From the NCBI GenBank assembly GCA_963924555.1, contig OZ004588.1, positions 4,092,001-4,156,000 of the forward strand: a DNA stretch of 64,000 nt, given 5' to 3'. The translations under genes were made by a program, and so were the position numbers. Source of the DNA: Crambe crambe (Eukaryota; Porifera; Demospongiae; Poecilosclerida; Crambeidae). Under the pieces are notes generated by a model. That model saw only the letters and a program-made list of their open reading frames with translations, had not been told where the DNA came from and made no database searches. Below, piece by piece: positions 12,701 through 63,948 of this stretch. Every line of letters begins with the position of its first letter. Within the stretch, counting starts at the first letter, position 1.

Positions 12701-15700
12701 TCCCTTAAACTCTATAATTTGTAATATGGACATAAATGACCTGTGGCCTGCCTTGTTCTAGTACTAATTCTCAGCGTTGGGCTAAAGTTCATTATTTATT
12801 ACAGAAAGGACTGGAGTAGTTGTTAGTTCTTGATCAACCTCCTCTTTCTCTCCAGACACTCTACTCCCCTCTCTCTACTCTGGCCCTCTGCTTGCCATTA
12901 TGCAAGGCTTGATGGAGAATGTGCTGAAGGCCCCAGCCGGCATGCAACAAGTTCGAGCCTACCTGTATGGCTCTCTCCTCTACTACCTCACCATGACCAC
13001 CAACCAGCACGGAGAAGCAGCTCACCCTGGCAGAGGTGAGGAGAAAGGGAGTGTGATAGTATATCACTCTGTAGGAATGAAAGAAATGGGTTGGGCTGCT
13101 CTCATGAGTGCCTTATTTCAAAACTCGCTAGAAAAAGCACCCAAACAGTGAGTCTATCGAGTGGACCACACAATCTTTTTTCAGTAGGACAAAATAGCTA
13201 TTCTTTTTTGGTTTCCAGAAACAACACTGAGTTTCACTCATGTTGGAGTGAGAGATTTTATCAACTTCTTCTGATATTAATTTTGATACCTTTGCATTAA
13301 TTATAAATAACATCTTATAAATAACATCTTCCCCAGCTCTAGCAGGGCCGCCGGAACCGCTCCGGCTGGTCAGGCCAAAACCGGACCACTCGTCGATCGA
13401 ACAACATTGGTAATGGTCGTCAACATTAAAAAATTGCCCACGTGTTCAACTGTTAATATAGGTGGGTGTGGTTATAAAGTGGGCGTGGTCGGTAAAATTT
13501 TTCAGCGCGCATATTCAGCCTGACCACCTCAAAATTGCTTCCGGCGGCTCTGTCTAGTATGTCAATTTAATGAATCTATGTCATGTATCCATTGATATTG
13601 ATGAATGTGTCTTGTATGTTTAGGGCCGCAGCGATTATGGCAGCCTGATAGTGAGCAGAATACAATGGCTGCAACTAACCTCTCTGCTCTGAACAGCTTT
13701 GGGGAACCTTTCATGGACGTCCTGTGCAAAAATGCCTGCAATGGACATGATGTAGCTCGTGTAAGTCTATTCTACCTTTAGGACTGTGGAAATGCATTAA
13801 TATACGTATAGGTTTAACACCTCTCTCACTCATCCAGAAATTCCACTAGAGGTTTTGATAAAGGGGAATGTCCCCTCAATCAACTACTATTGCCCCCACA
13901 CATAATATCCTGTCCTCTTCCTTCTCCTCCTGCCCCCTCCCTCCCACCCCTTCTTCCTGTCCCCCTCCCCCTCTTCCTCCTTTCCTGTCCCCCTTCCTCT
14001 GCCCCCTCTTCCTCCTTTCCTGTCCCCTTCTTCATAGATGCTCTCACTGTGTGTGCTGGATGCCATAGTGAGCCTTGACTGGAAGACTGTCTGGTTGAAG
14101 TTCATGTCGGAGAATGGCTACCTGCAGACCTTGTGTGCTAGTCTGCAGTGGGAAGACGATGGACTTAAGAAGATGCTCCTCCCAGCCCCAGAAGCCCTCA
14201 GGGCTCTCTATATCTATGAGTCAAAGATGGTGAGCAAACTACACACTGTCAACTTGTAGAGATTCAGTGTTAGAATCTCTTTGTTAAGCAACATTCAAAT
14301 CACTTCAACCTAAGTTTGTGTGTATGAAGGGTTGGGTTTGGAATTTGTCCAGATAGTATTGTTACAGTATTGGTCTTGCAAGCACTGGCTGGGTGGTTCA
14401 AGGTTTCCAGTAATCCATGGATCAGTGGATTGAACTGCTTTAGCATTTGATTCTTCCCCTGTCCAGTAATGTTAAATATAAGTTATATCTAACTGTATGG
14501 TGCTTAAGTATATTAATGCCATAGACCCAGCCAACTTTCTTTGAAGTTTCTTAATCTGGCCCGCCCTGCATTTAGTATGCTAGGGGAAACACTGACAACA
14601 TAACCTATGTAATTTTCTGCTTTCTATGCATGAAAGTTTGCTCTTGCTTGTCATTGACTTTCTTTTGTTAATTAACACGTGTGCAGGCATTTCTGACTCG
14701 AGTGGCTAACAACAGTGTGGGGGCTAGAGAACTCACCTCCATCAATGCTCTCAACTATCTCTCACAGTGCCAGTTCATTGACCTCCGACCTAGTCACCAT
14801 GACAGCGGCAATCTGCTGAATCAGGAACAATCCTTCATTCCATCTGTGTCTGAACGCTATCAGCAGATGCTTTTCCCCTTGATGAAGTTTCTCCTAGCCC
14901 TCTTGACCTGCCCAGGCTCCCACCACAAAGATCTCACCACACAAGTCACTTCTCTAATTGGAGAGCACTCTGATGTTTTTGCTGCCATCCTGAAGGAGCA
15001 ACATCCTGTAGTTACCATGGCTACACTCCAGGAGCTAGCCCTGGTTACTGCTGTTATTGGTCATTCAGGAGTAGGTCAGTATAAACACTTAATGTGTAGC
15101 TACAAGCACATGTGTAATAAATTATTACAGGTCATGATTGGTCATCACAATCCTCCACTCCCTTTGGGTCTGGGTTGATCCGACTTCAGCGTCTCATGCT
15201 CACGCTAGTCCCACAGTTCTGGTGCAAGCAGGTGTGTGAATCAAGTTGTAAGTATTTGTAGTATTGCTAAGTCTGTTTTTTATGGGTGCAGAATTGGCAT
15301 ACAATTGTGGAGAAAGCTGTGAAAGGTGAAGATGACCCATTTTGTTCAGATGAAGCTTCTCTTCTAGTCCAGGAAATCTCTGCCAACATTGTGTCCTATT
15401 GTCGGGTTGCCATGACTATGGGTGGTGAGTTTCCATGAAGAAATCTATTCCGTATTGCAATATAGTACACCACTGTATGTACACTATGCCATAATCACTA
15501 TTGTATTATATGTATGTACCTATGCACAATATACTATTGTATGGTAATAAGAACTATTCTACACTTCTATTCTATTAGTACACTGTGGTATGTGCACTGT
15601 ATTGCATTATGTACAGGTACGGAATTCTCATCACCTTACTGCCGTATCTTGCTAACCCCTGACCTGTCTAAAGCTTTGTCTGTGCCCCCTAATCAGGACC

Positions 15701-20000: not shown

Positions 20001-23000
20001 GTTTAAGTGTACTGAGTCAGCTTTCCTGGGCACCACCTAATGAGGACTTTATGGAGAATATTCAAGAAGAAGTGTGGCAACAACTGTTCCAACTCCTTTT
20101 ACTACCAGATATTCAATTGGTGCTACTATGTTTGGATACCCTTTACCAACTTACTGCCCATGGATCTAGGCGTGCTACAGCTTCAATTCTCCAAGTCAGA
20201 AGGTGAGTCACGTGCTTAGCTCAAACTATACCTCATTGTTGTTGATATGAATTTCCCTAAGGACTACCTGTAAATCTGTATGTCTCCAGCTCCCAAAATA
20301 AGTTAAGGGGACATGTACTCCTTAGAAGTTATACCCCTATCCATCCCAAATACCAATAGTTGTAGGTATCGCCATTCTAGGCCATGACTGATAATGATTT
20401 CCCAGATAAATGAGTAATTTAGAAGTTCTGCTGTGTCGGCTAGGCCACAACTAATTATTATACACAAAATTCCCACATTTCAGTGAAAAAGAAAGCTAAT
20501 TGTTAATAAACAGAAGTTGGGATATGATATTTTGTGCAGGTCTTGTGAGATATTAATTTCCTTATTAACATTGGACATACGGAGTTTTGGGGATGAAGCT
20601 TTGAGAAAGATTCAGGTGGTGCGTATCACTCAAGCTCAAACTTCTTCATCATCTTTGTCCTCTGTTGCACCCCTGAAGGCAAATTCCGAACAACGCTTCA
20701 CACCTACCAACAGAAAGTCTATGGTTACTTCTCTTCCTTCAATGAAGTCCAGTGTTGGAGTCTCTATTCTCAATCCTGGTGGCTCCACTCCAAGTTCCGG
20801 ATCCAAAACTGTGAAGATTGGTAATTGTGTTATACCACTGATGCCAAAAGCCACCTCATTATCACAGGGGCACAGTTCATCTCCCCCTAGCCGTATTAAA
20901 GGTCCAACTTCAGTGACTATTCAGCAAATACAGAATCTCTTGGCCAAATGTTCCGGTACAACCACGCCCACACCCACCAATTTACAGGGTTTTGCAGGAG
21001 GAGGTTCCACCATCACAATAACTGGGGGGTCGAATATCACCATTCATAAGTCAACAAGTCCCCTTCCTAACAGCAGGGTGTCCCCTGAACCAAGCAATTC
21101 TAAGTCTGTTGGTAAAACGAGCAAATCTGTCAGTAATCTATTGCGTTCCTACCTTGCCAAGAATGCTACTTCTCCATTGCCATCTACATCTGCCACTCCA
21201 TCCCCACCACCTTTCACAGCTTCTACAATACCCTATACCACTGCCACTCCATCCCCACCACCTTCTATTGCTGTTGGATCCCCATCACCTTATATCCATG
21301 CCAGCTCCTTATCAGTGACTAGTACAGCAAGTACTGACACTGTATATACCCCCACACAAAATAATAGAACTCCCTCACCGATCACTGTAACTCCATCCCC
21401 ACGAACCACCTGTACTACAGCTCTCTCTTCACAAACTGACAGAACTCCCTCACCAGTCACTTTTACTTCTTCCCCTCAGACAAGTTCCTTACCAGCATGC
21501 AGCAATGGCCTCCATAATACCTCTCTCTTCATACAAACTAACAGAACTCCTTCACCAGTATCCCCGCAGACCAGTTCTTCACTGGCTGCAACTGCATCTT
21601 CACAGAGCAATAGCCTGCATACTGCGGCTCTTTCTACACAAACTACTAGAACTCCCTCACCAATCATAATGACTCCATCCCCACAAGCTAGCTGTGATCT
21701 CAACTCTGTAGCCATCTCCATACCAAGTTTACCAACCGTGATGGTTCCTGATAGTAATGGCTTCACTATGTCCATGTACAAAACTCCCTCTCCAAGTGTA
21801 GTGAGTACGTCACAGATGGAAAAACCTCCCTCACCAACTGATGGTTCTTCTATGAGTCCCTCACCAGCAAATGACTCTTCTTCATGTGCATCCAATCCTA
21901 GAACTCCTAACAATTCTTCTGGTAACCCCTCAATATCCATTAGTGCTCCCTCACCAGCAAATCAGTCTTCTTCAAGCATACCTAACTCCTCACAGAATCA
22001 GACGAGAACTCCCTCACCGGCTAATAACTCAAGTACGAGTACACCAAACCCCTCACAGATGAATACTCCCTCACCAGCCAATGACTCTCCTCTGAGTACA
22101 CTTAGCCCCTCACAGATGAAAGCTTCCTCACCAGCCAATGACCTTCTTGTGAGCATATCTAACCCTCTCTCACAAGCCAGTGACTCTCCTGTAAGTGTAC
22201 TCAACCCTTTGATCGTTAGAATTCCTTCCCCAACCAATACCATAACTCCCTCCGGTTCTTGTGAGGATACACCCATCTCCTCCTCTCTAACGATCAGAAC
22301 TCCCTCTCTAGTTCAAACCAGCAGCAACAGAAGTCCCTCACCGGCTGATGTAACTTCTGTGAATACAGTGATCACCTCCGAAACAAATTCTGTTCTACTT
22401 GATACTCAAACCTCATCCCAAATTGGAGATGAGAATGTACACATTCCTTTCACAGCCAGTAACATTCCCCTCCAACTCCAAACACAGGTACCCCTTCATA
22501 CCAACAGTACTCCCCTCAGTACAGGAGTAGCTCTACCGCAAACAAACACGCTAGTCCTCTCCCAAAGCAGCAGTACTCCATTACTGGTCCCTTCCCAAAC
22601 ATGCACAGGACTCACTCAAAGCAGCAGTGCTCCTTTGAATCTGCCAGCCCCCTCCCTAACCAGCACTTCACTCCCAGGCATACTGTCTCAAAACTGTACT
22701 CCTTCAGGTGTTCTACAAGCGTCCAAGGAAGAAACCTTTGCTACTGAGTGGTAGGTCATTTAAAATACTGGGGTGCTTTATTTAGAAAAATGGTAGTGCC
22801 TTGTTCATTCAGGTATTCACTACATGTGTGCATCACATATCCTCATTCTGAATCATCAGACCTCATATTCTGTGTACCGTAAATGCTGACACCGGGTGTT
22901 ATTTTTGGTAATATGATGTAGTAGAATGGGTGTTAGAATAGACGCCGGGTGTTACTATAATGTAGTAGAATGGCTAAATCAGCACCTGGAACTACTTTTA

Positions 23001-29890: not shown

Positions 29891-30261
29891 CTATTATAAA
29901 TGGAAAAATTACAATCTAGCTGTAGCAACAGAAATAAATTAACATGAAAATTGTAAACAAGCCAATTTACAAGTAGCAACATAGCTGATAGATTACTGCG
30001 GTGATTGGGAGTATAAAATTTCTACACCATCTCAGATAGGCATTGGGGGCTAAAATGCTCTTTTTTGGTCTATTATTCTATTCCTCCAGCAGACCCATTA
30101 TAGTAGCCTATAACTATAGCTATTATCCTCAGCTATAAAATGTCATGAAAGAATACTTTTGAACTGTGTGTACACTGTAAAAAATGAAAATGTTTACTGC
30201 ATACCATCAATTTTTGTCCCAATGCACACACTGTTTTGTTTTCTTGCTGATCACATGCTAA

Positions 30262-31911
30262 GCTCAAACTATACCTCATTGTTGTTGATATGAATTTCCC
30301 TAAGGACTACCTGTAAATCTGTATGTCTCCAGCTCCCAAAATGTACTCCTTAGAAGTTATACCCCTATCCATCCCAAATACCAATAGTTGTAGGTATCGC
30401 CATTCTAGGCCATGACTGATAATGATTTCCCAGATAAATGAGTAATTTAGAAGTTCTGCTGTGTCGGCTAGGCCACAACTAATTATTATACACAAAATTC
30501 CCACATTTCAGTGAAAAAGAAAGCTAATTGTTAATAAACAGAAGTTGGGATATGATATTTTGTACAGGTCTTGTGAGATATCAATTTCCTTATTAACATT
30601 GGACATACGGAGTTTTGGGGATGAAGCTTTGAGAAAGATTCAGGTGGTGCGTATCACTCAAGCTCAAACTTCTTCATCATCTTTGTCCTCTATTGCACCC
30701 CTGAAGGCAAATTCCGAACAACACTTCACACCTACCAACAGAAAGTCTATGGTTACTTCTCTTCCTTCAATGAAGTCCAGTGTTGGAGTCTCTATTCTCA
30801 ATCCTGGTGGCTCCACTCCAAGTTCCGGATCCAAAACTGTGAAGATTGGTAATTGTGTTATACCACTGATGCCAAAAGCCACCTCATTATCACAGGGGCA
30901 CAGTTCATCTCCCCCTAACCGTATTAAAGGTCCAACTTCAGTGACTATTCAGCAAATACAGAATCTCTTGGCCAAATGTTCCGGTACAACCACGCCCACG
31001 CCCACACCCACCAATATACAGGGTTTTGCAGGAGGAGGTTCCACCATCACAATAACTGGGGGGTCAAATATCACCATTCATAAGTCAACAAGTCCCCTTC
31101 CTAACAGCAGGGTGTCCCCTGAACCAAGCAATTCTAAGTCTGTTGATAAAACGAGCAAATCTGTCAGTAATCTATTGCGTTCCTACCTTGCCAAGAATGC
31201 TACTTCTCCATTGCCGTCTACATCTGCCACTCCATCCCCACCACCTTTCACAGCTTCTGCAATACCCTATACCACTGCCACTCCATCCCCACCACCTTCT
31301 ACTGCTGCCCATCACCTTATATCCATGCCAGCTCCTTATCAGTGACTAGTACAGCAAGTACTGACACTGTATATACCCCCCACACAAAATAATAGAACTC
31401 CCTCACCGATCACTGTAACTCCATCCCCACGAACCACCTGTACTACAGCTCTCTCTTCACAAACTGACAGAACTCCCTCACCAGTCACTTTTACTTCTTC
31501 CCCTCAGACAAGTTCCTTACCAGCATGCAGCAATGGCCTCCATAATACCTCTCTCTTCATACAAACTAACAGAACTCCTTCACCAGTATCCCCACAGACC
31601 AGTTCTTCACTGGCTGCAACTGCATCTTCACAGAGCAATAGCCTGCATACTGCGGCTCTTTCTACACAAACTACTAGAACTCCCTCACCAATCATAATGA
31701 CTCCATCCCCACAAGCTAGCTGTGATCTCAACTCTGTAGCCATCTCCATACCAAGTTTACCAACCGTGATGGTTCCTGATAGTAATGGCTTCACTATGTC
31801 CATGTACAAAACTCCCTCTCCAAGTGTAGTGAGTACGTCACAGATGGAAAAACCTCCCTCTCCAACTGATGGTTCTCCTATGAGTCCCTCACCAGCAAAT
31901 GACTCTTCTTC
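30262..31911 (+). pseudogene. Broken duplicate of ARID2 intron 8 and exon 9
   Basis: Nearly identical to 20218-21887: the last part of ARID2 intron 8, the acceptor and the first about 1.35 kb of exon 9. Differences seen include scattered substitutions, a loss of about 16 bases in the intron part near 30340, and a 6-base insertion near 30990. A 7-base deletion near 31306 shifts the frame, and a one-base insertion follows in a C run near 31380. The copy stops abruptly at cttcttcat, where ARID2 continues with gtgcatcc. It lacks the other exons, so it cannot make ARID2. The right flank resembles sequence downstream of real ARID2, indicating duplication of the ARID2-to-copy-A block with an internal deletion. 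Confidence 0.93.
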
Positions 31912-32345
31912 ATTAAAGGCCCAAAAAATTTTAAGCTTGTATTTCCACAAACTCAAACTTGTTCTCTTAGAGTAAAAACATTATTGTTTTCTAATTAACC
32001 TTTGATTTTTGTTAGTGTGAAAAGGGGTGCAGCCATGGGAGGGGCATAAACCATACCCTGAATTAGAAGATCTAATGATGTCTTTTGAACTCTTTAGCAA
32101 GAAAAGTAGATTTTAGAACAGTCTTTAGATTTGTAGCACTGTAAAGCATGAGCAAACAGCCACCGTGTTACGTTGCAGTGCCCTTTAAAAGCTGCTAGCT
32201 TCTACAGTATTAAAGAGGAAAAAATAATAACTAGCTAACTAGCTATGATCTTTGTTGCTAAAATCATTCATAGTTACTGTATAATGGTTTTAATAGCTAC
32301 TGTATTGTTCAAGTTCCTTTTGAATGATGATAGGATGACATGCCT
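31912..32345. other. Duplicated flank between ARID2 fragment and tetraspan copy B
   Basis: Collinear with pieces of the copy A flank: 31912-32090 resembles 25945-26075, 32091-32165 resembles 26393-26465, and 32185 onward resembles 27650 onward. The THAP-like and unrecognised ORFs of the A flank are missing here. Confidence 0.7.
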
Positions 32346-33560: not shown

Positions 33561-34276
33561 ACATCTTAAGTTACATCTTGAGCCAAGTCAGTCTCACTTC
33601 CTCTGGCAAGCCATCTTGAGTTACATCTTAAGCCAAGTCAGTCTCACTGGTGTGGTGGGTCCCAACTTGATTGCATGCAACAGTGCAGCAGACTGACTTC
33701 CTCTGGCAAACCATCAATAGGATGTAGTTAGTTACAAACATCTTGAGTTACATCTTGAGCCAAGTCAGTCTCACTGGTGTGGTGGGTCCCAACTTGATTG
33801 CATGCAACAGTGCAGCAGACTGACTTCCTCTGGAAAACCATCAATAGGATGTAGTTAGTTACAAACATCTTGAGTTACATCTTGAGCCAAGTCAGTCTCA
33901 CTGGTGTGGTGGGTCCCAACTTGATTGCATGCAACAGTGCAGCAGACTGACTTCCTCTGGCAAACCATCAATAGGATGTATAGTTAGTTACAAACATCTT
34001 GAGTTACATCTTGAGCCAAGTCAGTCTCACTGGTGTGGTGGGTCCCAACTTGATTGCATGCAACAGTGCAGCAGACTGACTTCCTCTGGCAAATCATCAA
34101 TAGGATGTAGTTAGTTACAAACATCTTGAGTTACATCTTGAGCCAAGTCAGTCTCACTGGTGTGGTGGGTCCCAACTTGATTGCATGCAACAGTGCAGCA
34201 GACTGACTTCCTCTGGCAAATCATCAATAGGATGTAGTTAGTTACAAACATCTTGAGTTACATCTTGAGCCAACTT
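33561..34276 (+). repeat. 127-bp satellite/minisatellite array
   Basis: Units beginning catcttgagttacatcttga start at 33612, 33739, 33866, 33995, 34122 and 34249. The period is 127 bp, with 129 in one unit carrying an extra ta. Five full units are nearly identical; a partial unit with an internal deletion precedes (33561-33611) and a truncated one ends the array. Each unit contains gattgcatgcaacagtgcag. The open frame across two units is incidental. Confidence 0.95.
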
Positions 34277-40499: not shown

Positions 40500-41337
40500 G
40501 CCATTTTTCTCAATCCTACAACTTCATCACAATCACCACAACATTTGATAAATGACTTTCACCAACTGCTTCGCTCGCCGATTGAATATGTTACACGAAC
40601 ATACCCTAGTTATTTACTAATACTGAAGTAGTGTAAAATCTTTCCACATAATCAAATTAAACAGCTATTAATAAAGGGAAGTTTTACACCAGTGTAAAAG
40701 TGTCCCTTAAAATTCCCCCTATAGTAACTGTAGGCAAAATTCCTATTTTATAAAAAATAAGGTGCCAAGAGAGGAAAATAATGAACAGAACTAGAGCAAT
40801 AGACAGGAACTGACAGGAGAGAAACTGAACTTATACCAGGAGGGATGGAGATGAACTTTCACTTCTGGCCATGAAATCATTCTTGAAGCTGCAATGGCTA
40901 TTCTTCAAGCTGCATTGAGCAGAGGTCTGAACTTTGCTTTGGGTATTGAAGGAAATCAGGACAGAGAGCACTGGAATACCAATGTAGCTAGGTCCAGATT
41001 GGGCTGTGCTGATCGATTCTGTTCAAGTTGTATGGGATAGGTGGTGACCTTGTTTTCTTTTTGTTTTGTTTGTTTATTTTGTTTTTGTTTTTCTCTATTG
41101 ATGAAGACTAAGCTTATCTCAGGACAGTCTGATGTTGTAAGAATAGTGGAGAGTACAGACATGGAGACTTCCATCAAAGATGTACCATTTCTGCTGGCAT
41201 TCAGTAGCTAATCAGAAATCGTTTCTGATATTTTTAACGTGCTTGCAGTTAAGAATAGGAAGGTGTTCCACACAGATAGGGAACCATTTTGTATGATTGG
41301 AAGGATGATACCATTTCCAGTTCCCTGAAGTGTAATA
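40500..41337. other. Gene-free stretch
   Basis: No gene recognised. A T/G-rich simple stretch (tttgttttgtttgtttattt) lies near 41057. Confidence 0.4.
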
Positions 41338-41389
41338 GTGATTTTGATCTGCACTGCTGCAAGAGATGATGGGGTTCCCAATGAGCTTT

Positions 41390-41890
41390 CATACAAAGAT
41401 GTGCATGTGCTTGTTATGATCTATAGACGCTTCTATGGAGTATGTGACTCGGACACGTTGTTACAGCTATACTTGAGCTATGTGAGACCATTTGTGGAAT
41501 ATGCTGCACCAGTCTGGGATCCTCATTTACCGACACAGTGTAAGGCCTTGGAGAAGTTTCAGAAGTTTTCTCTGAGGATGAGTAGCAAGCAATGGCAGGA
41601 ACCATATGATTCGCTACTATTGTCATCAGGCCTGCACACTTTAGAAAGCAGGAGGAAAATACTAAAACTAAGTCTATTTGGACAAGTGATGCATGGTACA
41701 GTACATGTAACTCACAAACTGCCTCAATTTGTTTGATGGATCAGAAACCTTACAAGTCCCAATCTCAAGAACCAGGGCTTATGAATTTTCCTTTTATCCA
41801 TGTCACTACTATGTGGAATGCCCTGCCTCTGGTAGTCTGGATGTGACCTCGAGTTCATTATTATTTATTAGCCTTTAAATATCATCTGAA
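41390..41890 (+). pseudogene. Non-LTR retrotransposon reverse transcriptase C-terminal fragment
   Basis: The open frame to 41736 contains IYRRFYG, LYLSYVRPFVEYAAPVWDPH, LEKFQKFSLRMSSKQW and LESRRKILKLSLF, the characteristic C-terminal end of CR1/Jockey-type reverse transcriptases. After a stop, the usual tail (TMWNALPLVV) is readable in another frame at about 41800-41840. 5'-truncated and frameshifted; no catalytic YxDD part. Confidence 0.85.
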
Positions 41891-50014: not shown

Positions 50015-50979
50015 TCAATTAGGATGAAATTCATTTTTAAGAGCCTCTACACGTTTGAGAATTCGCGACCTGTGACCAAGAGCTGTGATGCCAAGGTCAT
50101 CCTTAAGTAACTGGTTGTCCAAAGTCATTAAACATTCTCCATCCACTTCATTCTCCTTGAAAGGATCCATAAAGTTCCCTAGATTCACTGACATCAGCCA
50201 TTGGCAAACATCATCTACACTCCAGCTGGTGAGGTTGGCTGGGTTCAGCCTGGACATAGAAACTGATGGTCCACAGTTCAGAGGTGGTCCAAGTAATCCT
50301 ACAATATTATTATTACTATAAATTATTAACACTCAGTGCATGCATGAGGGTTACAATAGCTAGTTGTGTGTATTATTAACACTCAGAGGGTTACAATAGC
50401 TAGTTGTGTATATTTCGTACATCAACTACTAAGCCAGAATGCTCCAACTTCAGCTTCAACAAGATTTTCCAGCATTTAATAATTTCCATAAAGACAAGAT
50501 TTGTAGTTATTACACAGCCGCCACGCCCCCTACTTCACATGCACATGCATATGCAAAAGGTTCAGAAGTAAGTTTCAAATCAACATGACTGCATGTGACT
50601 AATAGGTCTCAAATAACTACACAAACTGAAACATGATGCAATGATCAGTTCAGTGCCTGAGAGCATAGCACTGAATGAAGCAATGAAATCTACAGTTCAA
50701 CTGGGAAGTCTACTAAGAACTTAAAAACCAAGCCAGTGGTGAAACTGAGCCTACCTGGTGATGAAACAGGAGAGGGTAGTCTCAGTAGCGTGCTTCCTCC
50801 ATTCACTTGATCCGAATTGTCATGCGACTCATTGGCCCTGGAAGGGTTGGAAACCAGAGGAATCATGGTCAACCCAGTCTCCTGACCAACAGCTTCTTGA
50901 AAATGCTGCAATAGTACAAAGAGACTCCATTTTGAGATGTTACATTGGAAAAGAGAACTTAAACCACACCCCTGGTTAG

Positions 50980-51026
<47 letters not shown>

Positions 51027-54000
51027 ACTATTATTATTATCATCATCATCATCATGCCAAAACTGCATACCAAGCAGAAATATTATATAACCTAGCAGTG
51101 TTAAATGCAGATGGTAATGGTCGTTACATAGCATTGGTAAGGGACCCTCGTTAAGTAGTGTGAATGACACAAATTGGCGTCTATATACTGTATAAATCCT
51201 GTCTCTATATAGTTTCACTGGCAAAGAACTATAAGTTTCCCACTCTAGTTAGATGAAAGTAAGTGTGAAGGTAGCAGCTAAAACATGTAGAGAAGCAGTT
51301 ATAATTTTTTTCTACTTGTAATTATTATTATCACCATCATCATCTATGGGTTTGTCTTGATCTTTAATTGCATTCCAATATGAACTACTAACACTAATCT
51401 ACTTACAGCAATGATGTCATCTAATGAATTGTAGGGGTTAGGTCGTGGATGAACGTAGAATTTGTTGCTCTTGTTGACAATTCGCCAGTGACGAATATCT
51501 GTGTTAGTTCTGAATGCTAATGCATAGTCACCAGGTGTTCTCTCACTGGGACGAACCAGGAATGACCCTTTCCTACAGGAAGATAAACTTGATGAATACC
51601 GTAATCGTATAAATTTTCGATGGGGTTTTATTTTCGTTTTTTTTCGTAGTCGATCAGAATCCTCGAAAATAATAAACGAAGTCTTAGTACTATGACGTCA
51701 TATATGACAACGATGCGCATGCGTGTGCGATGCGATATCGATAGCAGCTGGAAAAAAACCTGGAGCAGATAGTCCGTGAGACGAAAGTATCATGCTTCAT
51801 TACCGGGATCATGGCCGTTACCTGTCTCTCTTCTACAACGAAGCGTCTCGCCTTCCATAGCAGTCTAGATTTTAGTCTGGCGTCGCCAGCCTAGCCTTCT
51901 TTTGGGGGGACTATCTAGATTTCTCTGTAGTAGCCATGAATATAGCCATCATCACTCGGCCCCAGCAGCAGGCAATGATATAGCTATTATGCGCATGCAT
52001 TATTTTCCATGTGCTTGCTACGAAAATTAGACCTGCGGAAATTTTTTATTATAGGAACAGCTCCGGAAATCACGAAATTTTAAACCTCCGAAAATTTATA
52101 CGATTACGGTACATGGCATATGTGATGCATAAGTGCATTACATCATTCACTTACTCTCCCTTTGAGTTCAAGATTTTCTCAGCTTCAATTTTCTTCACTT
52201 TCACTATCATCTATTATTATCAAGGTCAGTACTTATGAATCTAACATAAATTGGTATCTAATATTGAATATTGTGGTAGTAAGTTCATTAGACAAGATAC
52301 AAAGTAAATGTACATAAGGTAGATCATCCAGACTGAAACTTGTGCATCCTATAAGCTTACTGATTCATCCCAAAGGTTCAGTTTTGATATTTCATCTGGC
52401 TGGTGCTCTCCGTGTTGAGACTGAAAGTAAAATATTATCCAATGAATCACAATTAACACGTGTTACAACCAGTTGTCAGTGACTTTTATACCTCTGTAAA
52501 ACAACCTTTTTTTTTCTTTTTACCCATAAATCCACAAAGATTTTACCCAATGACTTTTGAGTCCTTTCCAAGTACAATCATGACCTTTGAATGAAAGCCA
52601 AACACAGACTTTGTATTTCCCAAATGGAATGCTCTAGTACCAGTCTTGAATCAAGTGCAGTCATGTTTATGTACATCTCAAAGACTCCACAAAATATCCC
52701 CATTACATCTGCTGAGGGTGTGTTCATATCCAACCTCATAAACATAATAAAAGTCCTAAAATTGTATATGGAGCATAACGATGTTGATTTGGTGTCTACT
52801 TATGCTCCAACCCACTTGAAAGGTTTGAAATTAGTGGTAACTTATGGGTAGACTTGCCATGATTAACTGTGGTATGTAACAACGTAAATACATGGTCACA
52901 TATTATTATTCTCTAATCCACATGAAAAGAAATGTTTGAGCTTGAAATTAGCTGTTATTATGGCTACAGGAAGTCCCCTTTACCACATGGGGGAATAAAA
53001 ATAGGAATAAATTTTAGAGCATAGGCACACCCAAAATTTTTGTGGCTGGGGTAAATTTTTGGTTTCGAAAAATTAATACACAAAAAGGTACAGATCATAC
53101 TTGCAAACTGAGAGATATAACATCTCCTACTACACAGTCTTAGCCAAGTAAAAATGCATTCATTAGCTCAATCTATGGTAAGCTCAATCTATGGAGAAGT
53201 TGGGAAAACTTTCATTAGTATCCTGGGACTGTCATAATAGCGATGACAATGATTGTTATGGATACGTTGTACACAAACAATAAAATAGTCCCCAGAGAGT
53301 TTCTTGTGAAATCTACTTCAGAGTAAGCCCTTTCAAATCACTGAGCAAAATATAACCTTTTCCCCAGGCTATACATCACTCATAATTGTGAAGACAATCA
53401 TATTGAGTCTCGCTTAATAACTTTTCTGATACTTTTAGTTAGTTCATCATTGCAAGCTGGTTCATAAGGAAAATTTTCATTCTCCTTAGTTGATCTTAGT
53501 TGATGTGTAACACTCATAGGTAGAGGAACCTATGGGGCAAGAGCCAATTAGCCTCTCCAGATCTCCACCTCTATAAGCTTACTTGGCATGTAGTAACATA
53601 CATGTAACAATATCTATACCCCGCGCGCATGTGCAGCAAGGGGTAAAGCAATTGGTTGTGGTGTATGCCAAAAATTTTGAAAAACCAGTAAATCGTCACT
53701 TTTTACGCTCTATTGCGATGGCAGAAGACTTACCTCTCAAATATAGCTCCACTACAGTAGTCTAACTTGGCAAACTGCCTTTATTGCCGAACAGAAATCA
53801 TAAGTTCTAACAAGTTCTAATTAAATGTATGTAATTCCCTCCATACCTACTACAAAATTTATACGGCATGCAAAATTAGCGTGGGGGGTATGAAATCTAT
53901 GATTGCTCTTGTTATAATTATGCAATCAATGTCAAATGATACAGTTAACTATTACATGCAATCACTACAGGTAAGTCACTGCAGTTATGTGATTGCAAAA

Positions 54001-57000
54001 TTATTATTATTATAAACTCAGTACACACCTCTGTATTACTTGTGCATGTTGCAATCACCTTATTAGTATTTAGATAAACAGTTGGGCACTATTTAAAACA
54101 CTTTCCATGATACTCATAGCTCTCATGTGATTCCAAACATTGGCCTGCCCTGACTCCCCCCCCCCCTTAATTTGAGTTCCCACATGTCAGGATTGGACCA
54201 TAATCTCTATAGGCCACTGTAACCCAAAGCAACTGGCCACCTGTAACTGAGAATAATGTGGATTAGCCTCGGCCCCAGGCACTCTTTTGTGACCCATCTG
54301 AAAGAGGGCCTAGTATCAGTTGTTCATGTTAGCCTTGGAATTCCAAGGCTTCCGCATATTCCTCATACACTCTCCATAAATGGATGTTTACTCACAGGAA
54401 AAAAAAAATTGAAAAACAAATTTGGTCAAAACTTGACTTGCCAAACAATACATCCTGCCTAAAGATAGCCTTTCAGAGCAAATGGTACAAAGAAACTGGA
54501 CAAATAGAAGGAGAAAGGAAGCTCACTCAGTAAACTTTCAGGTTATTGCCTGTATACTATACGCATGTGCAAACAATTAATACAGGTTCAATTTTCAATA
54601 GAGCCTGGGGACAAGGCTAAGTTGTGGATCAGACCATTTATTGGATAGCAGTTCTCAAACATTATAAAAAGAGTGTTAATTTGCTCACAAGTAATACACT
54701 CACAAGTTTCTTTTCTCTCCGTACTTCAAAGTTTACATCCTTAATGACCTTACACATGTGACCATACATTAGATCTTCATCTGCTTGATGTAAAGTATCC
54801 ATCACCTGTATAGAATTCAAGGTACGTATCAGTAACTCCCCTCCTTCCCCGTTTCCCTCTCCCTGATCATGTGATCATCATGTGATCATCATAATAATGA
54901 AATTAGAGGATTTAGAGGTCATTATCATAATACATACAAAAATATGGATTGGGTCACTGTAACGTAAGTTGGAGGGGAGAGAGAAAGGGAAAGGGGAAGG
55001 AAAGAGGGGAGGTGGGGAGAGGGAGAGAGAGAAGGGGAAAGGGGAAAGGAGGGAGGGAGAGGGGGAGAAGGGAGAAGGGAGGGGAGAATTAAAGGGGAGA
55101 GGAGGAGAGGGGGAGGAGGGAGGGAGAGGGGGAGAAGGAGAAGGAGAAAGGAGGGAGAGAGAGAGGAGGGAGGAGGGAGGGGGAATTAATGGGAGAGGAG
55201 GAGAAGGAGGGGAAAGGGGGGAGGAGAGAGGGAGAGGGGAGAAGGAGAAGGGGGAGAGAATTAAGAGGAGACAGGGAAGATTGAGTGTGAACTTACTGCC
55301 TGTTCCTCTGCTGTTTGTATGACTGGCTGAAGGCCTGAACTCATTCCGTAGTAGATGTGCAGCTTAGTAACTTGAGAGAGAGCTTCCACAAAATTCTACA
55401 AGGAACAACAATCAACTAAACTCATTCTCAACCTTCACTGAAAGGAGACAACTATATATGTATGTTATTGATGCTATTCTGGTCTATATACATCCACTGA
55501 AAGGAACTACTTCACTAACATCACACCCATGCAATGCCCACATTCATCCAGTACATGTACCAATGACAACTGTAAATCCTTTCATAAAGAGGAAAGAAAA
55601 CACTGAACCGAAAATGTGAGTATGCTCAATCAGAAACCAAACAATTTATGACTCGGGACTTTAGAGGAGGTAGCTCTCTCTACTGTACTTTTCACTTCAG
55701 TTGTCCAAGCATCGCTGGAAATGCTTGACTTAAACCACTCCATACTTGCTCTAAGTCTTGGAGCATGGACAGGTGCAAGCACAGTAATATGTGTGTAGAG
55801 ATGATTTGGAGGGCTCCATAGACCCATTAATAAACCTCACAATTGACTGGAGACAAGCTCCTCTATATCTTTTAACTCCCAACCCATTTAATATCACATT
55901 GTGATACTCTCCAGTATTAAGATCTTACCTCTTTAGATCTTACCTCTTTAGCTGAGTTATAGTTCTGTTGGTCCCACACACACTCACACAACACTACACT
56001 ACCTAAGTACAGCATTGCATTGCCAACAAGCCATAGACAACTCTATCTATACAAACTCTGAAGCTATGTATCTACAGCAGCTGCTATATAGTTTAAACTA
56101 GTGTGTTTTACACAAGCTAGTTCTATCTTCAAACGACCAATAAGCAAACATGAAGTCACGTGCACTAGAGAAAATGGACTAATTTGGATGATATTTGTAG
56201 TTTTCCTTTTGCATACACTAGATGTTGTGATTGTAACTGATAGAGTGACGTATGTAATTATGTACACTAGTACAGACTATTACAACACACTACTGGTCAT
56301 TCCACTGAAACTGAGTGTGTTCAAATATCTCACAATAATAACAACACTGGAAGATCAGCCTTTTAGCAAATTAGACACTTTCGGTTTTAATTTCTCTACA
56401 CCAGAACTGACCACAAACATAATTTTTTGAATATGTAGTGAAAAGGAGCTATAACTGCACATGATAACGCCCAAATACTACAGCCTGACCACACCTACCT
56501 ACAACCCAGGCCTCACTTTTGATTTTTATAATGGGAAGCTTGACAAGGGGTGAAGGGCTTCATCCCCCCACTTAAAAAAAAAATAATAATAAAAAATTCC
56601 AGTCTGAACTGTACAGACAGTGTTTATGTCTGTTTTTTGTTTGTTTTTTGTTGTTGTTGTTTAGGAGGGGGGTGGGTGGTGGTGACTGATCTGGGGAATA
56701 TGGAGGACCATCACTATTAAGTAAAAGGGGAGACTCTACATGAGTATGTACAGTGGAACCTCGATTATCCATATTTAAAAATATTAAAGGTCAATTTGGG
56801 ATACATGTTGCACATGCATGAATTTTTTGCAGCTGTTCTATCAAGGCTAAGAGAGTGGAAGAGTTCGTTCTGTGTCTCCTATAATTAGGTTTTCTACCTA
56901 GTTGTACTGTCTATCATAGTTTTTAGCTAGCTAAAGTGCCATCATAGTTGGTAGCCAGCAGTTCCACTTTAGTAATGCCACTTTGTAATGAGGGTGCAGT

Positions 57001-60000
57001 CATGTCAAAGTGGGTGTGGTTATGGCATTTTCATTATCCAAACATTCCCAAACATTAAACATTCACTTATCGAAGTTTCCACTGTATCAGGAGTTGTATG
57101 TGTAAATCAATAATGAGGTAAAGTGTTAGAAATAAAGGGTTCATGTAATGTGTTCTGGGTGCGGTGGAAATCAAAGTACCATTTTCCAAACATACTCCGA
57201 TAACCAAAATGTTGAGAGTCTAAACATATCAAAAATGGATATATTATGAATGTTATCATTATTATAATCATAGGAAAGTATCAGCAATATTATAAATGAA
57301 ATCAATAATTATCTATCCATTTTCATGGCATACCTACATAAGTTAAACCGGGGACTGTCACATTCAAGCAACAGCTTCAATAATAGCTTTAGGCATCCCA
57401 CAACTGAAGAACTATTATAATTAATTTTGGTGCTCATTGAGAAATATATACTTGAACTTCACTCAGGAGAGTTGAGAGATTTATCTCTGAGTCAGTGAGT
57501 CCATAGCTACTAACACTGGCTAGTCAATAATAAATATTTACTTTCTAGCAGTCAAAGAAGAAAGTGAAACACATTCACTTGCCTATACTAAAGAGACACC
57601 ATTATCATATTGCCATCTTTTCAATCGATCCTGTCATAACATGCTAGTTAACAGCTATGAGGGAAAACATTTTTATGAGCAGCAACACACTTAGAACTAC
57701 CGACTCTATCTTACTCAATATCCAATGATCACTCATTTACCTCCACAAATGAATCTAGTGAAGAGTGTAGTTCACTCGAGCCCCAGTAGAACTTGCCATT
57801 CTTGGTGGAGAGTTTCCAATGCTTCAAGCCGGTTTGATTTCTGGAATGATTTGAAAAGATTATTTCACACCATACAATTTTATGTGTGGGGTCAAAGGAA
57901 CCAGTTTCCTCTCTCATTGTAATTGAGAGAGGTACGTAATAATTCAATGCCTATTGTGACAACACTGCGGGAGAGACAGATTTTCTGTGAGAAGAGGAAG
58001 TAGCATGGGAAATGGTTTCATACACATAATATGAAGTAGAGAGCAGAGACAGGAAAATGACATGATGTCATCCAGAAGAATCAGTCCATGCCACTTCTAT
58101 AAAGAGGCTCTGCTTGATATTAAGTCCAAACATTCCAAATGGATGGCATCATAGTGCATTTTCAACACAGCTTAGCTATGCTAGTTGCATCAACTACAAC
58201 TCATTTTCAATCATTATGCCACTAGTCTTGGACTACGTAACTGGGATTGGAAATGCAATATGCCAGCCGCTCTTCATTGTATGCCCACAGCAACAATAAT
58301 AATCAAATTTTTGGATATCCATTGATCCTGGTGACTTCCTTCAGTTTCTTCTTTACCTCTGCACCTTCTTGTTCTCTGCCCAAACTAGCTATGAGTGAAG
58401 ATGTTGAAGCCTCCCAGTGGCCACAAGTCTCCCAAGCTAAGTGGCTGGCTATAGTCTCATAAGCTAAGCTAAGTGGCCACAAAGCTGAAAATTTATGGTA
58501 CCCCTGACATGATTTCCAGTTTGATTGGGACATCAAACCTAACGATATGGATTCTGGTCATGTCATTTAGTCCCAATTATCAATAGGTTATTTGATAACT
58601 TTGATCAGACCAAAATAATTATTAATCCTGTGTTCTCTGTACGTTATCAGCAACTCTGATAGCGTCATTACCATATAATAATGATCAACATGTGCATTGT
58701 AATACATAAGTAAAGTGACAAGACAATCTTACCCACCTGAACGAGAACACGTAAGCCCCTTCAACTGTGTTACTTCTTCGCAGTATATATGCCCCTGGAC
58801 TGATAAAAAGCAAAAAGGTGCATCCATTGAAGTTCTACCACTTATGTATGTATCTTACCTCATGTTCTCAAGGAGGCTCTCGCACATATCTCTGTCCATG
58901 CCTGTATACACCGGCTAATAAGGAAAAGAGGGTTCAACACATAAAATTTCAGGTATTATTACCAAAATTAATGTAATGGTTATAGTTAGTACAATCTTTG
59001 TTTATAAACTCAGTACCTTGGCCTGATTCAGTATCAGTATGGCCTGATTAGTATCAGTATGGCCTGATTTAGTATCAGTAATGGCCTCATTCAGTACTGG
59101 GCCAATCCAATACAGTATTGGCCTAATTCAATACCGGTGATTCAGTACCAGTATGGGCTTACAAGTAGTGGCCTTATTCATATAATTTAATTACCAGAAT
59201 GCTCCCAGGGATTCCCTCTTTTTTTTCCTTGATCAAGGCTTGGTGGTATCTAGCTGCATGAGACTGATGAAGGAATGCGTAGTTGGTATCTACCAGTTTG
59301 AAAACAGACTTCATGGCTGTCAAGATGTCTTCTGGATTTTCTGAATTTAGCTGGTTATTGAATTCACTCAATGCTTGCTCAACTGCAAAAGCATAATTTA
59401 TACATATAACCTATTTTCTCCCCACTGGGTACAAGGCCAACTACCATACTACCATAATGTGGGAAATAACTGCAGGACAAGGAAAAACCTCTAATTAGGA
59501 GGGGTGTCCTCATTTCAGGGATGACTTAATACTTCCCTCTATGCAGCTGCATTGAATTGAGGGGGCACTGCACTCAAGTACTTTTGGTAATGGTCATCAC
59601 ATAACATAAACCACTTATATATGGCCACATAATTATGTACGGCCATAAAGATTTTCATGGGGTCGATTTTATCAGCTTTAAAGAATACATTAAACAAATA
59701 CTTGAACACACTTCAACTTTGCAAACCCCATGAAAATTTCATGCTACAATAGCAATATTGCAGCTTCCAAAATTTGAGCTACTAAGCAACTCAAAGAAAG
59801 AACATGATCTGGGCAATCAGGTGCACATACAGACCACACCCACTTAATGAATAAATTTCATGATATGCAATTTGAGTGAAAATTAAGCCTCAAAATTTCT
59901 GAGCTGCTATAATAATATTATTATTATAGTAACTACTGCTCCAGGAATCTGGAATCCTTACCAAGTGAATTGCTTTGTCTGGTAGGTGATGAGCGAGCAT

Positions 60001-63000
60001 AAAGAGCAATTTTTAGTTCTGGGTTTACGCATGACATTTCTATCAGCTGCTCTCCTATCTCCTGGATAATCTGCAGTAAACAAAACAATAAATAGCTCCC
60101 AAAACTCACAATTGATGAATACAACCACAACAACAATAAAAACAATTCCAACAACAACAAGGTATGCTTTGAACACAAGGACACGACACGGATAAATATA
60201 ACTACAAAACGACAACAAAACATACCTTAACTCTGCCAACATATGTAGGATCATCGAAGAACTTCTTGGCTTCTTCAGTGTTCTTGACAACAAGGTTAGG
60301 AGAGCGGGGAGAGAGTTCTTCATCATACGACTCACACAGTCCCATGGCCTGGTACTGCAACTGCACACAGATACACCAAGAAAATACTTCAGTACAGAGC
60401 TAGAGAGCACAAAGCTAATGGTTCGGTTATTCGCTCCTAACTGTCATGCTCATGTACAAGGTCAAACATAACTAGAGCAGGGTATTATGGAACGCTTTCT
60501 TGAAATTCATTTTCTCACCAGCCCCCTACTTATATAGTTGTAATGGATGTTCCATTGTTCATAAGGAGCCAACTTCCAGCTGGTAACTATTCATGTCACT
60601 TACACCAAAAAATGTTTGTTAGGTGGGGTAATTTGGCTTTTTTTTAATGACTCTCCTAAAGTACTACATTTGAGCATCAGCATAATCTAATTAAGCATTT
60701 CATGGAAAAAATTGATCAATTACCCATGTCCTCAAACCGAAGGACTAACTACATCAAGTCTTTATGCTCACTCCCTCCTCTCTCCTCCCTGCCCCCCCCC
60801 CTAATATGCTTTGAAAGAGTGTTGTTTCGCTACATGAACACAATTTTAGATTCTATACACTGCATCATAAAACACATGTGCCTGATACAGCTACTTTGCT
60901 GCAGCTGTCCAAAAGAAAATGCAATCTTTCCTTTTGTTATAACAACATCCAGGGTGATTGGACAACCTCCAGGGTGATTGGACAACCTCCAGGGTGATTG
61001 GACAACCTCCCCTCTGTGGACATCACAAGCTACCTAATGTATTGTAAACCAACTGACTTCTTCTTCCACTAGATTCTCCACTATTCCAAAAGCTGGCATA
61101 TCCATGTATTTGATGGTTTTAAGGTTTTCACCAGTCTGCACCAGAGCATCATCTATATATATGCAAGAAGCATTGATATAAAAACACCCTTTACCAAATA
61201 CAAACCAAACTAAATATCCTTTACTGAGCTTGAATCATGCAGCAACTAAAATAACTTGACCCTTTACCAAATAAGACAGACTTCCATTGCATATTGTCTC
61301 TCTCTTCTTCTATGAAATGCCACACCCTTGAAGTTTGTAGGAGAGAGACATGTTGACATTATGCAGGTGTTATGAAACATTACAGTGCTGTAATGTACAC
61401 ATAAGGAATGAAGCTTGTGTATTTATGAGATTGTCAGTTTCACTTTACAACTCAATGGCATTCACATCCCTAAAGTTTTATGGATGGCCACATGGAAAGA
61501 GTTCACTCTTTGCTCAGCATACTTGTTCATAGGTGATGGACTTATTTATAACTTACGAGGAAACTGTGCAGATCCATAGAGGTCATCCACAGCACTCTGT
61601 GTCTGTCCTCTCCTCTTCATCAAGTGACTGCATAAAGGGAGTTATTTAGAGAGTAAAATTTGAACATACAATACATGCTTACGTAAGTGAGAGAATTAAT
61701 TATAAGTAAGCTGTAGCTATGATAATATTATTATACATATTATGGGCAAAATCAACCTTGCAGGAGCCCCAGATACTGACTCTTAGAATATGATCATTAT
61801 AATATTTCCCCAGCTATTAGAGATATCCTTTTCTTGAGCTCTGACTCTAGTTCAAAACTCTGCCCCTTGTGCGGGCATGATCGGGAATAATGTTCACGTT
61901 GCTTATTCAGCTTGTTTTCTATGAATTATCATTTTTCTACTTGGTATGCGGTTGCCCTTGAAAAAAGGAGTAAATTGTAAGCCAATGATATGTTCACTTT
62001 TAAAATTCGCACCAGACCCCATGCACTAGAGATAAAGTCCACAATCCACAGTTTACAATTAACATAGTTAACAATGGGAGCCAGGCGCCACGCATGATTA
62101 GCTTGCATTGGGACTCATTGCACATGAGCATAGATGCTGGCTCGCAGGTGCTTTCACGAGTGAGCTTTTTACCCTCCATCCTTCCCCATGCAACCTTCCC
62201 AGAGCTTTTTCCAGAAAGTTTATAGCAGAAGTCCCTCCATCATGATGGAGAGTGATCAAAATTCGGATCTTCCCTACCCTGGTCCTCATACTAAAATCCC
62301 CCCCCCCCCAAAAAAAATAAAAAGCTGGGGGAAAACCCCTGGGTTACGTGATGCCACGTAATGTCCCATGCATGACCACCACGGATGTCGCATGATGCCA
62401 TTCCATGGGTCATGTGACTGCTATGGATGTCGTGTGATGTCCAGAGTGACGTGGACCAGGGTAAACTGCTCTGGCTCCTGCCAAATACAGGTTACATACA
62501 CTTCCTCCACATGTGGGGCAACCATAATAGTTAAATAAGTCAAGTCACCTAGTGCAGGGCCTCTATAATAATAATAGCTGTGGCTTACTTTAGCAAGGAC
62601 ACATAAACACCAAGGCTCCACTGTATACGTGGCATTAGCCCTTATATGGAAGCTAGTAACTATTATTCTAGCGGTGTTTACATAAAGACTTCATTATGAG
62701 TGCAGTATGTGAATTGTTAAATACTACACTGTATCAATCTACTACATCATACCTTAGTGCATGAAGGCAGTAAATGAGTTTAGGCATGTCCTTTTTGTGG
62801 AATATATCAGTCATCACTGGATAGAAGACCTGCAATTATTCAGATTTATAAAAATTACTTCCTTCAGTGGAACGCTTCTAGTTCAGGTAAAAATTCGACA
62901 CACACAAAAAAGATTTTTTTTTTGGTACCTCATAAGCTTTGTTACTTAGTACTGTTACTTGGGCATTTGAGCAATGATTATGTATTTAAAAGATTTTGTT

Positions 63001-63948
63001 TTTCAGGTACCTCATAAGCTTTGTTACTTAGTACTGTTACTTGGGCCTTTGAGCAATGATTATGTGTTTGTAGGAGTAGGAAATGATAACAGAACGCTTG
63101 TACAGACAGACAACAAGCACCCACTGCCCCCCAATGTTATTGCTGCTATACTGACTTGTTTTTCATAAAAAACTTCCACAGTGGCAGCTGATGCCCAGCT
63201 TTGTATATTATAGTACTGTATATGTAAGTTATCAGAAGGGTTTGATCCAAAGTTCAATTAATGACATGTGATGGTCAGTCAACATGTCCAACTATGATAT
63301 CAGTTTGTTAGACCTGCATACACAAAATTTGTCCTGTCCACAATTTTGTTATAGGTATTTAACCGCTATCTCCTGCTCTGCAATGGACAGTCATGAACGT
63401 GAAGAAGAAAGCTGATATGCTTTGGCTACTCCATCAAAAGTTGTAAATACACTCTCTTTGTGAGCTCTGCAGCGATACCATATAATAGAACTCCTAATAC
63501 GTATGATTATTCATAGACTACCATAATGAGATGAACCTATCAGAGTCTTGATCTTAATTGTGTGTGTATTATACCACATGGACTAATAAGTATAAACTCA
63601 TGAGGTGGGTGTTGGCTGGTCCCACGAGATCTCATTATAATTACTATTAGGATCAAGTGTGGGCCAGCCTTCTCGATGCAATGCCTAAATATGCAATGAA
63701 CTATTCTATCAAGGTCATGATTAACTGTGAAAACCATATACTGGTAAGGGCAAATAAAACCGTACAGGTGAATCCCTCAAAGGATTCAGCACAGCTTAAA
63801 TATCTTATAGCAATGACTGCATCCCCCCTCTGGAATAAGATGTCATTCTAATAGGTACATACTTCCTCACCTTGGGTAAGCCCAACTTCACCAATGACTT
63901 CAGCCAGAAATTAATGTTGTCTGTATAACGATAATCTAGCCCTTTGAC
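50015..63948 (-). CDS. IQGAP-type CH / SH2 / SH2 / SAM multidomain signalling protein, 5' partial
   Basis: Seventeen exons on the minus strand, all phases consistent: 63948-63871, 62829-62753, 61627-61557, 61152-61058, 60360-60226, 60070-59962, 59382-59195, 58914-58859, 58799-58737, 57840-57741, 55395-55297, 54805-54704, 52420-52361, 52210-52155, 51572-51407, 50905-50755, 50298-50015; 629 residues and a stop. Residues 1-107 match the second half of the IQGAP calponin-homology domain and what follows (GLDYRYTDNINFWL, GLPKVFYPVMTDIF, MPKLIYCLHALS, MPAFGIVENLVEEE). Residues 108-251 are helical and IQGAP-repeat-like (VEQALSEFNNQL). SH2-1 is at about 252-324 (ESLLEN, AYILRRSN, LKHWKLSTKNGKFYWG). 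A helical linker follows to 411. SH2-2 is at about 412-490 (IEAEKILNSKGE, GSFLVRPSERTPGDYALAF). Both FLVR arginines are present. SAM is at about 555-625 (WSVDDVCQWL). Likely a phosphotyrosine-binding scaffold; no IQ, WW or RasGAP part is seen. Confidence 0.8.
50985..51055. repeat. (GTT)n then (ATT/ATC)n microsatellites
   Basis: About 14 GTT triplets at 50985-51026 and a short tat/cat triplet tract to 51055, in the intron before the 50905-50755 exon. Confidence 0.9.
51597..52111. mobile_element. TIR element with perfect 23-bp ends in an SH2 intron
   Basis: Left end TACCGTAATCGTATAAATTT (51597 on) is the exact inverse of the right end finishing at 52111. The outer TA may be the target duplication, giving 21-bp repeats. 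Interior is CpG-richer than its surroundings and has no transposase. It lies between the two exons of the second SH2 domain. Confidence 0.85.
54965..55272 (+). repeat. Polypurine (GGGAGA-type) tract
   Basis: About 300 bp almost purely of G and A, such as ggagagagaaagggaaaggg. Open in several frames, but a low-complexity artefact; lies in an intron. Confidence 0.95.
56751..57084. mobile_element. pogo/Tigger-like MITE
   Basis: Left end CAGTGGAACCTCGATTATCC (56751) and right end ending TTATCGAAGTTTCCACTG (57084) are imperfect inverted repeats flanked by TA. The CAGTGGAACCTCGATTATCC end is characteristic of pogo-type elements. Confidence 0.8.
59010..59160. repeat. Degenerate short tandem repeats
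   Basis: Units of about 25-30 bp around tggcctgattcagtatcagt, drifting toward the end; intronic. Confidence 0.7.
60943..61010. repeat. 22-bp tandem repeat, three copies
   Basis: Copies of ccagggtgattggacaac(ct/at), nearly identical; intronic. Confidence 0.9.
62908..63067. repeat. Tandem duplication, about 80 bp
   Basis: ggtacctcataagctttgtt through gagcaatgattatgt occurs at about 62925-62982 and again at 63008-63065 with one or two differences; intronic. Confidence 0.9.

Follow-up and report, generated by a model that had tools for sequence, protein, structure and literature searches.

A stretch of 64,000 nucleotides from the sponge Crambe crambe (contig OZ004588.1, positions 4,092,001 to 4,156,000; hereafter the window) raises the question of whether an IQGAP-type CH segment, two SH2 domains and a SAM domain can belong to one gene. 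A sequence-only reading had proposed such a fusion on the minus strand, as an actin- or Rho-linked scaffold converted to phosphotyrosine reading. Here, we find a gene with one consistent exon structure, whose product carries these domains, has kept the phosphate-binding arginines of both SH2 domains and derives its N-terminal part from an IQGAP. The CH-SH2-SH2-SAM proteins form a real and conserved family of adaptors, undescribed in the literature searched, and no other named group was found to have their architecture.

The fusion gene comprises 19 exons in agreeing phase

The genome covered consists of 143 Mb in 119 contigs, and as the fusion gene runs past the window end, a further 14 kb were read there. 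Splice reconstruction gave 19 GT-AG exons on the minus strand with agreeing phases and a product of 709 residues. This contains, in order, an IQGAP-type CH domain, a linker with tyrosine motifs, one IQGAP repeat, SH2 (SH2-1), a helical linker, SH2 (SH2-2), a proline-rich stretch and SAM. Exons 3-19 (n = 17) lie inside the window at 63948..50015 (-); the 17 phase-consistent exons described earlier were reproduced in their outer limits, their count and the four boundaries quoted there (57741, 55395, 54704 and 52420). The gene is nevertheless longer than had been proposed. It starts upstream of the window, at 66350, so the earlier reading had covered only part of CH. Past the end of the window, on the same contig, exons 1 and 2 (66350-66268 and 66072-65916; C11:4158350-4157916) carry the start codon, which 45 nucleotides (nt) of open frame separate from an upstream stop, and the initial half of CH. 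The exons in the window are as follows.

63871..63948, minus: exon 3, CH domain; 78 nt in phase 0, length and phase equal to the IQGAP exon; tblastn match
62753..62829, minus: exon 4, CH domain; 77 nt as in the IQGAP exon; tblastn match
61557..61627, minus: exon 5, CH end and IQGAP N-terminal extension; splice model, tblastn, intron comparison
61058..61152, minus: exon 6, IQGAP N-terminal extension (PAF..VENLVEEE); splice model, PDB match, tblastn, intron comparison
60226..60360, minus: exon 7, tyrosine-motif linker (CESYDEE, FDDPTYV); splice model, tblastn; start agrees with relative P0001
59962..60070, minus: exon 8, linker/beta-hairpin region; splice model and alignment, no tblastn match of its own
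59195..59382, minus: exon 9, single IQGAP repeat; hhalign; 5' intron column and phase shared with an IQGAP repeat exon
58859..58914, minus: exon 10, SH2-1 start; splice model, tblastn
58737..58799, minus: exon 11, SH2-1 with the FLVR arginine (YILRRS, R357); splice model, alignment, tblastn
57741..57840, minus: exon 12, SH2-1 (LKHWKL..); splice model, tblastn
55297..55395, minus: exon 13, SH2-1 end and start of the inter-SH2 linker; sequence reading, tblastn
54704..54805, minus: exon 14, inter-SH2 linker; sequence reading, tblastn
52361..52420, minus: exon 15, linker with LWDES end; sequence reading; WDESMIV over the exon 15/16 junction shared with P0001
52155..52210, minus: exon 16, SH2-2 start (KKIEAEKIL); sequence reading, alignment
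51407..51572, minus: exon 17, SH2-2 core (GSFLVRPSERTPGDY.., R517); SH2 hidden Markov model 49 bits, Pfam, tblastn
50755..50905, minus: exon 18, SH2-2 end and proline-containing stretch; splice model, tblastn
50015..50298, minus: exon 19, SAM domain and stop codon; SAM_1 E 2e-17; tblastn

The splice path-finder combined codon and splice-site scores with nine domain peptides as anchors, and it misplaced several linker exons. The exons at 55297-55395, 54704-54805, 52361-52420 and 52155-52210 and the start at 60360 were set by reading the sequence; the earlier coordinates were known beforehand, so that the splice model, which also used the anchors, is not fully independent. The homologs were fetched only later and then agreed. 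Weak-penalty paths (71 to 161 exons) were discarded as mostly spurious. From a stronger-penalty path, a Ser/Pro low-complexity 'exon' at 54938-55326 and tiny linker exons were rejected after sequence reading, with which the later relatives agree. An exon 7 start at 60361 broke the frame and was rejected in favour of 60360. In the intron that separates exon 13 from exon 14, a long pyrimidine-rich low-complexity stretch at 54938-55290 misled gene prediction. A repeat fragment with similar copies at many genomic places lies at about 51580-51680, adjoining the acceptor of the SH2-2 exon on its upstream side. No AATAAA or ATTAAA was found within 515 nt 3' of the stop; such words are present in several introns.

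Alignment with relatives points to a single gene

Searching by tblastn at E<=0.01 with the Halichondria panicea relative (P0001) matched 15 of the 19 exons, in order and on the minus strand, and exon 1 was matched by the relative P0003. Exons 8, 15 and 16 had no separate match with the Halichondria protein at this threshold and are covered by the full-length alignment. At E<=1e-3, the same protein gave 16 matches in the real 18 kb (these may include one cross-match between the two SH2s) and none in 50 dinucleotide shuffles. The alignment with relatives runs end to end, and the WDESMIV peptide over the exon 15/16 junction is identical in Halichondria. Judged by these alignments, the locus is one gene.

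It could be argued that gene prediction mistakenly merged two adjoining genes, one IQGAP-N-like and one SH2-SAM, at the 2.3 kb intron at 57740-55396. However, SH2-1 spans exons 10-13, so the 57741/55395 gap falls within a conserved stretch. A split would also suit the stop met within 21 nt when exon 9 is read beyond its donor, and a 29208-bp Geodia barretti contig (P0004, P0047) annotated as the pieces 'Protein pob1, partial' and 'Ras GTPase-activating protein 1'. Against this, all domains stand in single proteins in the Halichondria, Amphimedon and Sycon records and in the uninterrupted open reading frames (ORFs) P0003 and P0007, and we regard a merger of two genes as very improbable.

The N-terminal part derives from IQGAP

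A Pfam scan of the spliced product detected CH (E 3e-11), SH2 in two stretches (E 1e-27) and SAM (E 2e-17), in accordance with the SH2, helical linker, SH2 and SAM read earlier before the stop. The best PDB match of the CH domain is IQGAP1 (E 2e-48), which agrees with the IQGAP-like CH placed first in that reading, and it is 47% identical to the CH part of the IQGAP from the same genome. The latter gene stands apart from the fusion; its model, at C19:4039970-4055385, has matches to RasGAP and RasGAP_C, and WW and IQ parts were recognised in it by eye. Both the PDB match and the fold comparison speak for a well-preserved CH fold and IQGAP identity. In the IQGAP-like part, 7 of 8 introns agree in alignment column and phase with those of the own-genome IQGAP, both gene models coming from one path-finder; the sole unmatched intron follows residue 232. 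Between CH and SH2-1, hhalign of the family against IQGAP repeats found one repeat (prob 98.4, E 8.5e-15); the controls, four stretches aligned as single sequences, all stayed below 1% probability. The helical repeats claimed earlier are thus present as a single detected IQGAP repeat, and no array of about six was found. Neither WW, IQ, RasGAP-related nor RGCT domains were detected in the product at E<=1; IQGAPs normally continue to the first three, as had been noted. The RasGAP_C matches in the genome are both on C19, none being at the fusion locus. The fusion therefore resembles IQGAP1/2/3 and the own-genome IQGAP in CH, N-terminal extension, one repeat and 7/8 introns, and differs from them by its SH2-SH2-SAM part and the undetected domains. 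From these matches and shared introns, the N-terminal part of the protein is shown to derive from IQGAP. In a CH tree of 29 rows, 7 family rows lie on one side of a branch, apart from the IQGAPs, with support 100/100; the stem branch of the family is long (1.01 changes per column).

The phosphate-binding arginine is intact in both SH2 domains

The FLVR arginine which binds phosphate is kept in both SH2 domains (R357 and R517). The C-terminal SH2 of RASA1 (C-SH2) is the best single-sequence PDB match of SH2-2, and in the SH2 tree the SH2-2 group adjoins it, split from 12 other SH2 rows with support 90/92, which is below the mark. This tree contained no NCK row and included 6 of the 10 own-genome SH2 loci (L001-L004, L052, L053); L006, L054, L057 and L059 were left out, either because no plus-strand match reached E 1e-3 or because the row duplicated another. 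SH2-1 grouped with no other SH2 in it. RASA1-like N-SH2 exons are found in the same genome at C19:3.915-3.924 Mb. According to an excerpt of PMC7530234, the FLVR-unique features of RASA1 C-SH2 are a beta-C5 Tyr and a beta-D4 Arg. Both are missing from SH2-2, where the window protein has Ala and His, and 14 of 14 members lack both. The fusion also differs from RASA1, which is built as SH2-SH3-SH2-PH-C2-RasGAP, in having no SH3, PH, C2 or RasGAP domain in the Pfam scan (E<=1). An origin of the SH2s from RASA1 was considered and is not established, given the tree support and a tie with NCK1 described below.

Elsewhere in the genome, 29 SH2 matches lie within about 105 kb at C5:1417826-1522148, an apparent tandem expansion of SH2 genes. 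Three more, within 6 kb at C15:2906819-2912354 and in frames of 397-413 aa, look by eye like tandem Src-type kinases.

The family is likely confined to sponges

Related proteins with the same domain order were found in Halichondria panicea (LOC135344660, 57% identity over 98% of query), Amphimedon queenslandica (LOC109589532, 43% identity over 98%) and the calcareous sponge Sycon ciliatum (LOC135811005, aligned end to end). We treat these proteins as orthologues. The unnamed ORFs P0003 (802 residues) and P0007 (819 residues) also carry CH, SH2 and SAM; their contigs, of 2585 nt and 3782 nt, respectively, have lengths that would fit spliced mRNA. Unnamed sponge relatives share the domain order of the window protein, whereas linker lengths and tyrosine motifs differ. 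Pfam confirmed CH, two SH2 stretches and SAM in P0001, P0002, P0003 and P0005; P0016 stops short of a SAM after its CH and two SH2 stretches. No CH was found by Pfam in P0008 and P0009, and the Geodia and jgi family rows are likewise without it. P0008 has three SH2 stretches, with a second copy of the repeat and SH2-1, perhaps by faulty assembly, and was kept in the alignments.

The protein searches each scored the 7997-8000 candidates with most shared words, which yielded 15, 36 and 13 proteins, some of them without a name. Among the matches listed, all named proteins with CH and SH2 are from sponges (Demospongiae, Calcarea) and no named family member is from outside them; the remaining named matches are IQGAPs or CH proteins, a PLC-gamma-2, a SAM protein and the Geodia gene pieces. 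Since about 8000 candidates were scored per search and some rows are unnamed, confinement of the family to sponges is likely, short of proof. The sponge relatives are annotated only as uncharacterized or by domain, and the CH-SH2-SH2-SAM architecture was not found in titles, opening lines of abstracts or excerpts from the open-licence literature, most subscription papers lying outside this scope, nor in an excerpt of PMC4265756. The earlier statement that no family with this order was known thus holds within these sources. The family seems to sit near the base of animals.

Linker tyrosines and the predicted structure

An acidic-context tyrosine is present in the CH-to-repeat linker of all 9 members checked. 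The motif DDP[TK]Y[VMI] occurs in the window protein, P0001, P0002 and P0003, IYDP in P0005 (Sycon) and P0007, and IYDS in P0016 and P0009. The linker tyrosines are no more than candidate phosphorylation sites. In the fold model of the relative P0001 (mean pLDDT 71.7, pTM 0.49), the CH-to-repeat stretch has low confidence at residues 205-244, and the linker is probably disordered. With a pTM of 0.49, domain placement in this model is not interpretable. Foldseek against the PDB recovered the CH and tandem-SH2 matches again. A separate fold comparison hardly probes the residues between CH and SH2-1.

A putative phosphotyrosine adaptor on the actin side

IQGAP CH domains bind F-actin, and IQGAPs dimerise via a part of the protein that follows the repeats; phosphotyrosine is what SH2 domains recognise, and many SAM domains associate with one another. 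The fusion protein is missing the dimerising and GTPase-binding half of IQGAP and has two SH2 readers and SAM instead. On balance, we incline to the view that it is a sponge-conserved adaptor, recruited by phosphotyrosine, clustered by SAM and acting on the actin side. In this view, the 5' part of an IQGAP gene, with the exons for CH and N-terminal extension and one repeat exon, would have been joined to a tandem-SH2 and SAM module. The CH domain would contact F-actin, and the two SH2s would dock the adaptor on tyrosine-phosphorylated, possibly doubly phosphorylated, proteins. SAM might cluster it, substituting for the missing dimerising part of IQGAP, and the linker tyrosines would be candidate sites for self-docking or hand-over, as a possible means of regulation. 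The earlier proposal of an actin/Rho scaffold turned phosphotyrosine reader is partly supported: IQGAP ancestry and intact arginines are shown, and actin binding is something we infer.

Several points weigh against this account. Not every CH domain binds actin, and resemblance to SAM does not prove polymerisation. The CH tree leaves unsettled which IQGAPs are nearest to the family. The family profile ties RASA1 C-SH2 (55.9 bits) with the NCK1 SH2 (55.6 bits), so that no single SH2 donor stands out. Demosponge and Sycon-like members differ in their linker tyrosine motifs, and SH2 placement in the model has low confidence (root-mean-square deviation about 17 with both superposed on SHP2).

Known phosphotyrosine-to-actin routes, such as Vav, Nck and cortactin, are widely common to animals, and Vav also has CH and SH2 within one protein, with a DH-PH-C1 core and SH3-SH2-SH3. 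In the fusion, DH, PH, C1 and SH3 are not detected (Pfam, E<=1) and SH2 number and order differ from Vav; the difference in order had been stated before, together with one in CH type. SHIP2 is like the fusion in having SH2, then a proline-rich stretch, then SAM; it has one SH2 and a 5-phosphatase, whereas the fusion has two SH2s and no phosphatase detected by Pfam. An excerpt of PMC7139352 reports mammalian IQGAP2 as a SHIP2 partner, through the SHIP2 PRD and SAM, and because of this the fusion may, by analogy, combine in one protein roles that are brought together in trans in other settings.

The same report suggests that IQGAP parts need no direct contact with actin to come together with SH2/PRD/SAM proteins, and would suit a phosphotyrosine adaptor whose CH is a non-actin protein-protein module and whose SAM links to other SAM proteins. 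The long CH stem branch means that CH function may have shifted, yet the CH fold and IQGAP identity are well preserved, and we find this alternative possible and rather unlikely. Still less probable in our opinion is a dominant-negative or decoy IQGAP relative, competing for IQGAP N-terminal partners without the GTPase-binding half. Retention of only CH, extension and one repeat, with WW, IQ, GRD and RGCT undetected, and the presence of a separate IQGAP with RasGAP and RasGAP_C in the genome would be compatible with a decoy, which however leaves unexplained why two arginine-intact SH2s and SAM were kept since the Demospongiae/Calcarea split. The adaptor that we favour would add a directly built phosphotyrosine-to-actin route, seemingly sponge-confined and predating the separation of Demospongiae and Calcarea, and the family offers a handle on how early animals connected tyrosine kinases with the cytoskeleton.

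An apparent helix-turn-helix variant in Geodia-like sponges

Among the jgi sequences, two pairs share their C-terminal ends without a single difference, P0048/P0049 over 251 residues and P0006/P0051 over 257, and are wholly different upstream. The divergence point of both is one site just before SH2-2, upstream of which stands either the usual linker or a Brinker-type helix-turn-helix (PF09607, E 4e-13 and 8e-12). The pairs come from different sequences and probably from two species, and the translated helix-turn-helix exons of P0049 and P0051 have 63% identity. P0052 has 4 differences from the Geodia barretti piece P0047 in its first 241 residues, followed by an apparent retained intron and then a similar helix-turn-helix exon. 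The junction of this form, which keeps the frame into SH2-2 and SAM and is the same in both pairs, corresponds to the window intron 54703-52421. From these relatives, it appears that in Geodia-like sponges an alternative first exon yields a DNA-binding SH2-SAM protein, swapping out the IQGAP half. The Brinker-type exon has no credible match at the window locus (78 kb, best E 3) and five matches elsewhere in the genome, none on C11. Tentatively, and with considerable doubt, we envisage, for some of the sponges, a two-output gene in which alternative first exons join the SH2-SAM reader to an IQGAP front (long form) or a Brinker-type helix-turn-helix (short form), a view drawn from the Geodia-like relatives only. 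If true, one gene could route phosphotyrosine signals to the cytoskeleton or, in the fashion of STATs, to chromatin, and the DNA-binding isoform, should it exist, would link SH2 to DNA binding in a way rarely seen other than in STATs.

Other features of the window

Exons of a Nup192/205-family nucleoporin lie on the plus strand at 10591-11370 and 14672-15175 (PF11894, E 7e-24 and 5e-16). The open frame at 41329-41736 (+) resembles by eye the reverse transcriptase end of a non-LTR element. A direct duplication, 97% identical over 1.7 kb, comprises 20208-21885, which lies in a 755-aa open frame, and 30251-31913, which lies in frames of 276 and 209 aa. Other repeats are 27647-28755/32172-33262 (83%) and 42030-42820/44195-44998 (88%), and a tandem repeat with a period of about 127 bp, 98% identical, occupies 33612-34273.

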